From contig NZ_JACJMB010000008.1 of the NCBI RefSeq assembly GCF_016902615.1, forward strand, positions 1-64,000: 64,000 nt of DNA, in the 5' to 3' direction. The first letter of the stretch is position 1. Every line of letters starts with the position of its first letter. Source of the DNA: Collinsella tanakaei. Its GTDB lineage: Bacteria; Actinomycetota; Coriobacteriia; Coriobacteriales; Coriobacteriaceae. Below are positions 41,849 to 46,598 of the stretch, piece after piece. The position numbers and the translations under genes were made by a program. A model generated the notes under the pieces. The model saw only the letters and a program-made list of their open reading frames with translations, searched no databases and was not told where the DNA came from.

Positions 41849-41896
41849 GGCACACATTCCCTGTTGAATCGATCTGTTGCAGATAGGAGCATATTC

Positions 41897-43027
41897 ATGG
41901 CAGATTCCAAGCAGACCGTCGCGTTCATCGGAACCGGCATCATGGGCGCGCCCATTGCGGGCCACATCCTGGACGCCGGCTACGACGTCGTCGTCTACAA
42001 CCGCACGAAGTCCAAGGCCGACGGCCTCGTGGCGCGCGGTGCCCGCTGGGTGGATAGTCCCGCTGGGGCGGCTCGCGATGCCGACGTGGTGTTCACGATG
42101 GTCGGGTTCCCGACCGATGTCGAGGAGCTCTATCTTGCAGGCGATGGCCTGCTGACCGTGGCGAAGAAGGGCGCCTACCTCATCGATCTCACGACGAGCT
42201 CCCCGGAGCTCGCGCGCGACATCTCCGAGGCCGCCGAGACCATGGACAAGCACGCGTTCGACTGCCCGGTGACCGGCGGCGAGGCGGGCGCCATCTCCGG
42301 CACCCTCACCCTTATCGTGGGCGCCACCGAGGCGGATATCGCCCCGGTCCGCGCTATCCTCGAGACGTTCTCCTCCAAGATCTTCTGCTTCGGCGGGGCG
42401 GGCAAGGGCCAGGCGGCCAAGCTCGCCAACCAGGTGTCGCTTGCGGCCTCGATGGTCGGTATGGCCGATGCCCTGTCGTTCGCGCAGCAGTCCGACCTCG
42501 ATCTCGCCCTCACGCGCGAGATGATCCTCGGCGGCACCGGTGCCTCCGGCGCCATGGAGCAGCTCGCCCCGAAGTCGCTCGACGGCGACTGGAAGCCCGG
42601 CTTCATGGTCAAGCATTTCCTGAAGGACATCGGTCTGGCGCTGCAGGTTGCCGAGGAGAAGGAAATCGCGCTGCCCGGTGCCGACACCGCCTTCACGCTC
42701 TACGACATGCTCGAGGCCATCGGCGGTGGGGACCTGGGAACGCAGGCCATCACGCTGCTGTACCAGGAGGAGGCCGAGGCGGTCGCTGCCGGTCTCGACT
42801 GGTCGCTGTACACCCACGCTCACGAGGAAGGCGACGAGTGCGGCTGCGGGCACGACCACGAGCATGGCGGCCGCGAGTGCGGCTGCGGTCATGACCATGG
42901 CCACGACCATGGCGACCACGAGTGCACCTGCGGACACGACCATGATCACGAAGATCACGAGTGCTGCGGCGGCCACGGCCATGACCACGACCACGAGTGC
43001 GGCTGTGGACACCATCACGAGGGGTAG
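41897..43027 (+). CDS. Beta-hydroxyacid dehydrogenase (tartronate-semialdehyde reductase/HIBADH family) with His/Cys-rich metal-binding tail
   Basis: 376 aa. Residues 1-305 form a complete NAD(P)-dependent beta-hydroxyacid dehydrogenase: GTGIMG at 12-17, substrate site DCPVTGGEAGA near 122-132 and catalytic K175/N178 in GQAAKLANQ. Residues 307-376 are an extra tail with 21 His and 10 Cys, built from repeats of the pattern ECGCGHDH. Such tails store or chelate Ni, Zn or Cu; this has no counterpart in ordinary family members (about 290-300 aa). TAGGAGC precedes ATG 41897. The next gene, a small membrane protein, starts three bases after the stop. Confidence 0.9.
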   Translation: MADSKQTVAFIGTGIMGAPIAGHILDAGYDVVVYNRTKSKADGLVARGARWVDSPAGAARDADVVFTMVGFPTDVEELYLAGDGLLTVAKKGAYLIDLTTSSPELARDISEAAETMDKHAFDCPVTGGEAGAISGTLTLIVGATEADIAPVRAILETFSSKIFCFGGAGKGQAAKLANQVSLAASMVGMADALSFAQQSDLDLALTREMILGGTGASGAMEQLAPKSLDGDWKPGFMVKHFLKDIGLALQVAEEKEIALPGADTAFTLYDMLEAIGGGDLGTQAITLLYQEEAEAVAAGLDWSLYTHAHEEGDECGCGHDHEHGGRECGCGHDHGHDHGDHECTCGHDHDHEDHECCGGHGHDHDHECGCGHHHEG

Positions 43028-43461: not shown

Positions 43462-44157
43462 ATGGCAGAAGAACAAACGCAGGAGCTCACGGCGGAGGAG
43501 GCGGTCCGTCTCGCGGGCGTCGAGCACGACCGCGATGCGCTCGCTGCGCTGGTCGACGAGTTGGCGGGCCGCAGCAGGCTCAAGCGCCAGCTGGCCGCGC
43601 GCGTCGTGCATCTGCTCGCCGAGCGCGAGCCGGTGCTGCTCGAGCAGTACATCCCCAATCTGATCGATGCGCTCGACTGCTCCGAGGCCCAGACGCGCTG
43701 GGAGATCCTCGACGCGCTGACGCTGCTCGTGCCCGATCATGCGCGCGAGGTCGGCGCCGCCTACGACGGGGCGGAGGCCGCCCTGTTCGACGACCTGTCC
43801 TCGACGCTGCGTCTGTCCGCCTTCCGCTTCCTGTGCACCTGGGGCGCCACGGAGCGCGGGCGCTCGAAGAAGGTGTGGCCGATCATCGACGAGGCCATCC
43901 AGTGCTATCACGGCGATCTCGAGTACCGCGATATGCTCGGCTGCCTGCTGACGTTCGCCGAGGGCAAGATCGAGGGCGGTGTGGCCGGAGAGCTTGCTGG
44001 CCGTCTGCAGTTCGATGCCGAGAACGGGAAGGGGACCTACCTCAAGGCCCGCTCGGCGGAGATCTACAACCTGCTGCTCAAGCGGTTCAAGCTCGATCAT
44101 CCGCAGAAGCGCGCTCGCACCGTTGCGAAAAGCGATGACGCGGAGGACGAGGAGTAG
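43462..44157 (+). CDS. Hypothetical alpha-helical (HEAT-like) protein
   Basis: 231 aa, acidic, fully alpha-helical in appearance, with repeated pairs such as RQLAARVVHLLAEREPVLLE and TRWEILDALTLLVP resembling HEAT repeats; a charged DDAEDEE tail ends it. No catalytic motif. Not recognised. It begins three bases after the preceding membrane-protein gene. HEAT-type folds usually bind other proteins, so a scaffold role is possible. Confidence 0.75.
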   Translation: MAEEQTQELTAEEAVRLAGVEHDRDALAALVDELAGRSRLKRQLAARVVHLLAEREPVLLEQYIPNLIDALDCSEAQTRWEILDALTLLVPDHAREVGAAYDGAEAALFDDLSSTLRLSAFRFLCTWGATERGRSKKVWPIIDEAIQCYHGDLEYRDMLGCLLTFAEGKIEGGVAGELAGRLQFDAENGKGTYLKARSAEIYNLLLKRFKLDHPQKRARTVAKSDDAEDEE

Positions 44158-44220
44158 TCCCAGTCCTGCTGCATGCGGACGCGATGTTGGCAATCGACTT
44201 CCATGAAGGAGTGTTCACCC

Positions 44221-45366
44221 ATGGGTTTGATTCAGAAAAAAGACGAAGACGAGGTCATCGAGGGCATTGAGGTCATCGAGCGCTCCGATGAGCCCGACGA
44301 TCTCCCGCAAACGGAGTACGACCTGGTCGGGGGCAAGACCGCTGAGGACATCTCGGGTACGACCGAGGCACGTGAGCAGGCGAACTCGCTCGACCTCACG
44401 CCCGATCCGGAGCTTATGGGCGATGATGCCGAGGCGAAGGCAGCCGAGGGGCCGGAGAAGCCGAAGCACGCCGCCGAGCCTGCGGGCACCGATCCGAAGA
44501 AGCCGGAGGCCACCTCGGGCAACGGTGACGGCCATGCCCCGAAGCGCGGCCTGTTCATCGCCATCGCCGTTATCGCGGTGATTGTCGCCGCGGTCGCCGG
44601 CTACTTTGTCGGCCACGGTGGCTTCGGTGCCGCCAGCCAGGGTGCCTCCTCGGCGTCGCTCACCGAGGACCAGCTCGATACCGTCATCGCGAGCTACACG
44701 TACAACGGCGCCTCGACGGACATCACCGCCCGCGAGGTCATCGAGTCCCAGTACAGCCTCGACGCGGTCAAGCAGGATGACGGCACCTACCCGACGCCTG
44801 CGGCCGACTCCGCGCTCGCCTATGCGCGCAACCACATCATGCTCGCCGAGGCCGAGACGCGCGGCATCACCGTCTCGGATGACGAGATGACCGAGTTCGC
44901 CGAGAGCTCCATCGGCACCTCCGACTACGCGGAGATGGCCGAGAACTACAACCTGACCGAGGACCAGGCGCGCGAGGTCGTGCGCCAGCAGGCGACGCTG
45001 CAGAAGCTCTACAAGCAGATCGTGCCCGAGACGAACGCCTCGGTCCCGACGGCTCCCACCGAGCCTGCAAGCGGCGACAACTCCGAGCGCTCCAAGGACT
45101 ACGCGGACTACATCATCGGCCTTCTGGGCGACGAGTGGGATGCGAACGCGAACACCTGGGCGTCCGAGGACGGCCCGTTCTACTCCGCGTTGTCCGGAAC
45201 CGACTTCACGGCTGATTCCGCGAGCTATGATGAGGCTCTCACGGCGTACTACACCGCCTACCAGGAGTATGCGGAGCAGGCCGGCGATGCCCAGACCGCG
45301 TGGAGCGATTTCCGGGACAGCCTGTACGCCAACGCCGACATCCAGCTGTTCGGCCTGTACGTCTAA
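44221..45366 (+). CDS. Membrane-anchored SurA-like (peptidyl-prolyl isomerase N-domain-like) protein
   Basis: 381 aa. An acidic cytosolic N-terminus of about 105 residues precedes one membrane span at about 108-130; the rest lies outside. The outer part (ITAREVIESQYSL, RNHIMLAEAETRGITVSDDEM, LTEDQAREVVRQQATLQKLYKQI) resembles the SurA/PrsA N-terminal chaperone domain, without a parvulin domain. It may help folding of exported proteins. AAGGAG precedes ATG 44221. Its stop shares one base with the start of the DUF523-PNP gene. Confidence 0.72.
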   Translation: MGLIQKKDEDEVIEGIEVIERSDEPDDLPQTEYDLVGGKTAEDISGTTEAREQANSLDLTPDPELMGDDAEAKAAEGPEKPKHAAEPAGTDPKKPEATSGNGDGHAPKRGLFIAIAVIAVIVAAVAGYFVGHGGFGAASQGASSASLTEDQLDTVIASYTYNGASTDITAREVIESQYSLDAVKQDDGTYPTPAADSALAYARNHIMLAEAETRGITVSDDEMTEFAESSIGTSDYAEMAENYNLTEDQAREVVRQQATLQKLYKQIVPETNASVPTAPTEPASGDNSERSKDYADYIIGLLGDEWDANANTWASEDGPFYSALSGTDFTADSASYDEALTAYYTAYQEYAEQAGDAQTAWSDFRDSLYANADIQLFGLYV

Positions 45367-46598
45367 TGGCGGCCCGTCTATCCATCCTTATCAGTTCCTG
45401 CTTGCTTGGAGCCCCTTGTCGCTACGACGGGGGCTCCAAGCCCGATTTAGCGGTGGAGCGCCTGGCGCGGCGCATCGAGTGCGCGGGCGGGGCCGTTGCG
45501 CGCGCCTGCCCCGAGATGCTGGGCGGCCTTACCTGCCCGCGGGTGCCCGCTGAGCGGCGAGGTACGCGCGTGGTGGCAGCCGATGGGCGCGACGTGACCG
45601 CCGCATACCGTACCGGCGCCGACCGCACGCTTGAAATCGCACGGCGGGCGGGTGCGCGTCTTGCTATCCTGAAGGCGAAAAGCCCGTCGTGCGGCACGGG
45701 CCGCATCTACGACGGTACGTTTTCCGGCACGCTCGTGCCGGGAGATGGCGTATGTGCCGAGCTGTTGGAGCAGGAGGGATTCATCGTGGTTGATGAGGAG
45801 CTGGTGCGGTTCTGCGAGCCGAGCTTCGAGCATCCGGTAGCGATCGTGTTGGGGAGCGGCTTGGGTGCCCTTGCCGACCGTGTGCGTCCGGTGCGCCGCA
45901 TTCCCTATGAGGATATCGAGGGGTTCCCGCATGAGGCGATTCCCGTGGAGGGGCATCGCTTCGAGGTCATCGTCGGCACGATCGACGAGGTCCCCGTCGT
46001 GGTCTATCCGGGGCGCGTGCATCTGTACCAGGGGTATTCCGCGCTCGAGGTCACCTCGCTTGTCCGCCATGCGCACCGTCTGGGTTGCCGCGACATCATC
46101 TTGACCTGCGCCTCGGGCGCGGCGGGAGATATCGCGCCCGGTACGGTCGGTCTCATCTGCGATCAGATGAACCTCACGGGCGTGAACCCGCTCGCGAGCG
46201 CCGAGTGCGTCGCGGCTGCCGAGATCGAGAGCCCCTTCGTGGCGATGACGGGCGCCTACTCGAGCTATCTCGCCGAGTTCGCCCGGGCAGCCGCCGACGA
46301 TGCGGGTATCGAGCTTGCCGAGGGCGTGTATGCGGGTCTGCTCGGTCCGACCTACGAGACGGCGGCCGAGGTCGCCGCGCTGCGTGCGCTCGGTGCCGAT
46401 TTCATCGGCATGTCGACGGTGTGCGAGGCCATCATGGCCCATGCGCTCGGAATGGAGCTGCTCGGGCTCACGCTCGTGACGAATCGGGCGGGCGGCGCGG
46501 GCAACGCGCACGATGAGGTGCTCGCCAAGGCCGACGAGTGCGGTGGCGCCGCCTGCGACGTCATCATGGGCGTGCTGCGCTACCTCGGTCGCCGCTGA
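45366..46598 (+). CDS. Fusion of DUF523 (TudS-like desulfurase) and purine nucleoside phosphorylase
   Basis: 410 aa. Residues 1-150 are a complete DUF523 domain with its cysteines C12 (ISSCLLG), C48 (ACPEMLGG) and C109 (KSPSCG), the positions that hold an iron-sulfur cluster in the thiouracil desulfurase TudS of the same family. Residues 155-410 are a complete purine nucleoside phosphorylase: GSGLG at 163-167, YPGRVHLYQGY at 214-224, GLLGPTYETAAEV near 324-336, MSTV at 349-352 and TNRAGG at 372-377. The usual NAAG motif is replaced by CASGAAG. One reading frame with no internal stop; coupled to the upstream gene by TAATG. A role in thio-nucleoside salvage is inference. Confidence 0.88.
   Translation: MAARLSILISSCLLGAPCRYDGGSKPDLAVERLARRIECAGGAVARACPEMLGGLTCPRVPAERRGTRVVAADGRDVTAAYRTGADRTLEIARRAGARLAILKAKSPSCGTGRIYDGTFSGTLVPGDGVCAELLEQEGFIVVDEELVRFCEPSFEHPVAIVLGSGLGALADRVRPVRRIPYEDIEGFPHEAIPVEGHRFEVIVGTIDEVPVVVYPGRVHLYQGYSALEVTSLVRHAHRLGCRDIILTCASGAAGDIAPGTVGLICDQMNLTGVNPLASAECVAAAEIESPFVAMTGAYSSYLAEFARAAADDAGIELAEGVYAGLLGPTYETAAEVAALRALGADFIGMSTVCEAIMAHALGMELLGLTLVTNRAGGAGNAHDEVLAKADECGGAACDVIMGVLRYLGRR

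Follow-up and report, generated by a model that had tools for sequence, protein, structure and literature searches.

Desulfidases of the TudS Family and Trimeric Nucleoside Phosphorylases

Thio-uracil compounds are the substrates of the TudS enzymes characterised so far, 4-thio-UMP being the best, and the docking and kinetic studies also concern compounds of this class; in TudS_A the cluster ligands are Cys10, Cys43, and Cys104, while Glu45, Ser101, and Ser103 are the catalytic residues (PMC10611767). The reported TudS proteins are stand-alone in 58.9% of the cases and fused to DUF1722 in 40.1%, the two architectures accounting together for 99% (PMC11417400). Among the trimeric purine nucleoside phosphorylases (PNPs), SmPNP2 keeps the Glu/Asn pair that binds the base, has altered residues at the phosphate site, and cleaves cytidine in addition to purines (PMC6128611). 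A TudS-PNP architecture was not found described in the papers searched, a search that left most subscription papers outside, and in the papers naming both DUF523 (the former name of the TudS domain) and a nucleoside phosphorylase the co-mention is incidental; the architecture is likely already listed in domain databases, without a function.

The TudS-PNP Fusion Gene and Its Locus

The window, a stretch of 64,000 nucleotides from Collinsella tanakaei, encodes a protein (P0001) in which both domains are complete and are read in a single unbroken frame, as the initial annotation had proposed (Table 1). In particular, PF04463 matches with an E-value of 1.6e-40 and a score of 138.8 bits against a gathering threshold of 34.7, covering profile positions 1–140 of 141, and PF01048 (E 2.4e-35), which also lies far over its threshold, is the only Pfam domain on its C-terminal side; the junction between the two is tight and devoid of a long linker. 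A sequence search of the PDB with P0001 retrieved TudS 6Z92 (E 2.4e-30) together with numerous trimeric PNPs, the best being 8SWU (2.9e-47). Trimeric PNPs are also the top structural matches of the AlphaFold monomer model, which has a mean pLDDT of 84 and a pTM of only 0.62, so that the domain arrangement is not fixed by it. Both halves are under purifying selection, with dN/dS values of 0.16–0.42 for TudS and 0.11–0.26 for PNP, which argues that both work.

Table 1. Features of the fusion gene and its conserved neighbours (positions in the window).
Feature	Position	Strand	Basis or remark
Second conserved neighbour, no Pfam/NCBIfam family	43462..44157	+	Present in 23/24 fused loci
Upstream neighbour, one putative TM segment, no Pfam/NCBIfam family	44173..45366	+	Stop overlaps the ATG start of the fusion (TAATG)
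TudS-PNP fusion gene, 410 aa (P0001)	45366..46598	+	ORF and domain profiles
TudS domain (PF04463, formerly DUF523), residues 7–145	45384..45800	+	Pfam, alignment; residue roles from PMC10611767
Putative Fe-S ligand codons C12, C48, C109	45399, 45507, 45690	+	Aligned to TudS ligands
Junction VVDEELVRFCEPSFEHP, residues 141–157	45786..45836	+	Contains CxPSxEHP, kept in fused copies and persisting in TudS-less PNPs
Trimeric-type PNP domain, residues 158–404	45837..46577	+	Pfam, NCBIfam, PDB search, alignment
C248 codon, clade-specific swap for human PNP N115, beside phosphate-binding A116	46107..46109	+	Alignment

The gene order preceding the fusion is conserved across about 17 genera and includes, on the 5' side, the two genes without a family, a gene for an NAD-binding 3-hydroxyisobutyrate-dehydrogenase-like protein and often that of a hibernation factor. 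All the 24 fused loci examined have the immediate neighbour upstream in the same orientation, 23 of them close by. In the window, the 3-hydroxyisobutyrate-dehydrogenase-like protein (41864–43027) bears a long Cys/His-rich tail with the repeated motif ECGCGHDH, possibly metal binding.

Conservation of the Two Active Sites

In the TudS half, C12, C48, and C109 align with Cys10, Cys43, and Cys104 of TudS, which bears out the earlier observation that all three cysteines are retained; E50, S106, and S108 correspond to the catalytic Glu45, Ser101, and Ser103, and R19, Y20, and Y115 to Arg17, Tyr18, and Tyr110, R19 being on the phosphate side. Of the 42 fused TudS domains examined, 41 span C12, R19, C48, and E50 and show no variation at any of these positions; K103, S106, and C109 are the same in all 42, and S108 is replaced by Ala in two.

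In the PNP half, human S33, H64, R84, H86, Y88, A116, E201, M219, S220, T242, N243, and H257 all have their counterparts; the kept residues are numbered in P0001 as S164, H197, R217, H219, Y221, E331, M349, S350, T372, N373, and H382, with E331, N373, H382, R217, H219, and S350 corresponding to human E201, N243, H257, R84, H86, and S220. The residues for base binding, ribose binding, and catalysis are nearly always kept in the fused copies. In genome G115 the PNP half of the fused copy (L014) carries A116G, E201P, N243H, and H257R, with intact TudS residues, and the fusion gene of G045 (L170:4072-5261) is frameshifted within its PNP half.

A clade-specific change concerns human N115: the initial annotation had correctly noted CASG in place of NAAG, and the Cys, C248 in P0001, is found in nearly all fused PNPs and in their TudS-less descendants, whereas Asn occupies this position in canonical PNPs from other orders and in the stand-alone PNP of genome G091. 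T242 is moreover replaced by Ala in most Atopobiaceae fused copies. Among the NCBIfam models, PRK08202 (purine-nucleoside phosphorylase) is only just exceeded, with 233.1 bits against a cut-off of 218, and TIGR01697 scores 201.4 against 197.1, while P0001 falls below the equivalog cut-offs of TIGR01698 (187 against 302.6), TIGR01700 (185.6 against 293.35), and XapA (125.8 against 370.9); for comparison, the stand-alone PNP of a relative (L110) reaches 347 bits with PRK08202. N115C, the low PRK08202 score and, in most Atopobiaceae, T242A suggest that specificity could have moved. Of the change in base preference proposed earlier, the substitution itself is real and the shift is unproven, because the base-recognising E201 and N243 are kept; an activity on pyrimidine nucleosides or thio-nucleosides is conceivable, given the low score and the precedent of SmPNP2, but unsupported.

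Distribution among Coriobacteriia

The fused architecture was sought, as the initial annotation had recommended, in a sample of 400 genomes of the class Coriobacteriia, and also in a sample of 397 genomes of the phylum. Full-length fusions are encoded by 94 of the 400 class genomes (count from the match table, excluding the truncated copies of G221 and G370 and the frameshifted one of G045), which rules out an assembly artefact or a chance fusion. The carriers are 8 of the 41 Collinsella genomes sampled, one sister genus and about 83 genomes of a family recognised as Atopobiaceae by a shared contig, family names beyond Collinsella and Atopobiaceae having been assigned by inference; almost all the Atopobiaceae sampled retain the fusion, and none was found outside Coriobacteriales in the phylum sample. 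In each genome with a full-length fusion the single PF04463 match is the fused copy, and a second TudS was not found in the genome of the window. This genome has two PF01048 proteins; the non-fused one is MTA/SAH-nucleosidase-like, so that the fusion is its only TudS and its only recognisable PNP. ThiI, the enzyme that makes s4U, is present in it and in 193 of 200 class genomes; tRNA s4U, the presumed source of 4-thio-UMP, should consequently exist. Linkage of stand-alone TudS genes to thiI is not a rule, as the two lie within about 6 kb only in G063, G174, and G345.

Within Coriobacteriia, TudS has several different fusion partners. Fusions with a GNAT acetyltransferase occur in Eggerthellaceae-like and related genomes (L055, L059, L061, L066, L073, L077, L079, and L095, all tested with Pfam except L079, which was read by eye), and fusions with DUF5662 in L050, L052, and L056.

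Single Origin of the Fusion and Repeated Loss of TudS

A single joining event, at a conserved locus and older than the split between the Coriobacteriaceae and Atopobiaceae copies, gave rise to the fusion; several losses of the TudS half followed. In the trees, the fused TudS domains group together (support 0.68) and have as their sister the stand-alone TudS proteins of two Atopobiaceae genera (0.96 for the parent node), and the fused and TudS-less PNPs form one clade with a support of 0.97. The TudS-less PNPs hold the same locus as the fusion and are nested among the fused ones, that of G277 with fused Collinsella (0.94) and that of G291 with fused G343 (0.999). They begin with remnants like MVDERTVAFCEPSFEHP and retain CxPSxEHP, a motif present in the fused proteins and lacking in other PNPs; this junction scar indicates that the fusion came first and the loss of TudS after. 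The PNP part alone is found in seven Collinsella genomes, six of which encode a stand-alone TudS at another place, belonging to a different branch of the TudS tree and with 40–44% identity to the fused domain of the window, as against about 47–59% for the Atopobiaceae fused domains. TudS is absent in the seventh (G155) and in the checked TudS-less members of Atopobiaceae genus g35 (G159 and G195).

Other arrangements are also found. The same upstream gene is followed in G091 by a TudS that stands alone, a canonical PNP being encoded elsewhere. In G377 and G372, of a third family, a TudS gene and an unfused gene for a PNP relative lie side by side, with 60 and 93 nt between them; their proteins fall outside the fused clades, their PNPs lack E201 and N243, and the pair may be either the ancestral arrangement or a parallel one. 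In the unfused PNP relatives beside TudS (L172:1736-2512 and L188:4763-5593), E201 is replaced by Leu and N243 by Ser or His, so that ordinary oxopurine nucleosides may not be substrates of these proteins; a frame resembling adenosylhomocysteinase, read by eye, follows the PNP relative in L188. A suspected TudS-PNP adjacency in G146 and G128 was dismissed, since the PNP is alone there.

Proposed Function and Alternative Explanations

The fusion is probably a bifunctional enzyme of nucleoside/nucleotide salvage, with two separable activities on different products of RNA turnover. The N-terminal domain would bind a [4Fe-4S] cluster through C12, C48, and C109 and strip sulfur from 4-thio-UMP or 4-thiouridine freed by tRNA turnover, while the C-terminal domain, predicted to be trimeric, would phosphorolyse inosine and guanosine of the same RNA pool; the physical link would provide co-expression and a fixed stoichiometry rather than an obligatory channelling of one substrate. 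The TudS preference for 4-thio-UMP and the kept oxopurine residues make two salvage steps on different products the simplest reading. The bifunctional enzyme of the initial annotation is likely, as the two-domain protein is genuine and both active sites appear intact; with ThiI, a source of thio-nucleosides is present as well. The accompanying idea that both halves serve one thio-base or nucleoside, by desulfurisation and then release, is disfavoured by the thio-uracil substrates of TudS, the oxopurine residues of PNP, and the repeated loss of TudS, which took place mostly in genomes with a TudS at another position and speaks against a reaction that needs both halves. The species with ThiI and no TudS at all (G159 and G195) count against the favoured reading.

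An unlikely explanation is that the loss of an intergenic stop produced a neutral fusion with no benefit beyond shared expression, in which one half may decay in some lineages: the repeated loss of TudS, the substituted PNP half of G115, and the frameshift of G045 agree with it, but about 83 sampled Atopobiaceae genomes retain the fusion, the TudS residues are invariant, and purifying selection acts on both halves. Retention in almost all Atopobiaceae could in fact mean a real functional coupling.

It is distinctly unlikely that TudS desulfurises a nucleoside and a changed PNP then cleaves the same one, as in 4-thiouridine to uridine to uracil. The tight junction, the substitutions N115C and T242A close to the phosphate site, and SmPNP2, which with its Glu/Asn pair kept and its phosphate site altered also takes cytidine (PMC6128611), would suit such a sequential enzyme. 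Against it, nearly every fused PNP retains E201 and N243, and TudS was repeatedly lost from proteins that kept PNP, with TudS present at another locus. The genome of the window also lacks a TIGR02644 pyrimidine phosphorylase, its sole other PF01048 protein being MTAN-like; this gap was dismissed as a sign of uridine cleavage because fusion-less relatives (G075, G077, G141, and G049) often have no pyrimidine phosphorylases either, and thus it does not call for the fusion. Nucleoside phosphorylases, moreover, are not known to use monophosphates, a further point against a sequential enzyme. It is the monophosphate that TudS favours (PMC10611767).

An enzyme dedicated to the salvage of thio-nucleosides, whose desulfidation and phosphorolysis would be coupled on a single substrate or through communication between the active sites, with a gain of specificity for pyrimidine or thio-nucleosides in the N115C lineage, is improbable. 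Although PNPs accept thiopurine ribosides, the hosts are largely gut anaerobes, and one thiopurine nucleoside could engage both halves, it is very improbable that the fusion desulfurises environmental or drug-derived 6-thioguanosine or 6-thioinosine and cleaves the nucleoside for salvage or detoxification. The docking and kinetic work on TudS deals with thio-uracil compounds (PMC10611767), none of the papers searched mentions TudS together with thioguanine, no thiopurine gene is recognisable at the fusion locus, and near-universality in one family does not fit sporadic drug exposure.

Comparison with Known Systems

The fusion is a third, lineage-wide TudS architecture, which on the favoured reading would tie the recycling of s4U/thio-UMP to purine salvage. 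The locus constitutes an unusual natural experiment: it occurs with a lone TudS, with the TudS-PNP fusion, and with a lone PNP, scars show the direction of change, and the effect of the fusion on desulfidase function is directly testable with genes of culturable gut bacteria.

RudS, the TudS-DUF1722 desulfidase of tRNA s4U, shares with P0001 a TudS domain followed by a second domain at the C-terminus; in P0001, however, this domain is PNP instead of DUF1722, and a tRNA-binding domain was not seen. With the stand-alone TudS desulfidase of 4-thio-UMP and thiouracil (6Z92-6Z96) it has in common the full domain, the three Cys, the Glu, the two Ser, and the Arg/Tyr/Tyr set, whereas its own TudS, for which desulfidation is predicted, carries PNP on the C-terminal side. 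The likeness to SmPNP2 (PMC6128611) lies in the kept Glu and Asn base residues and in changes at the phosphate site, T242A being also present in most Atopobiaceae copies; SmPNP2, with its known pyrimidine activity, differs in having A116L, absent in the fusion. Finally, P0001 shares with the trimeric PNPs (PRK08202/TIGR01697) the fold and the canonical catalytic residues, 8SWU and 6TK9 being its nearest solved relatives, but it is distinguished by the Cys in place of N115, by a diverged score, and by the replacement of the canonical N-terminal segment with TudS and the junction.
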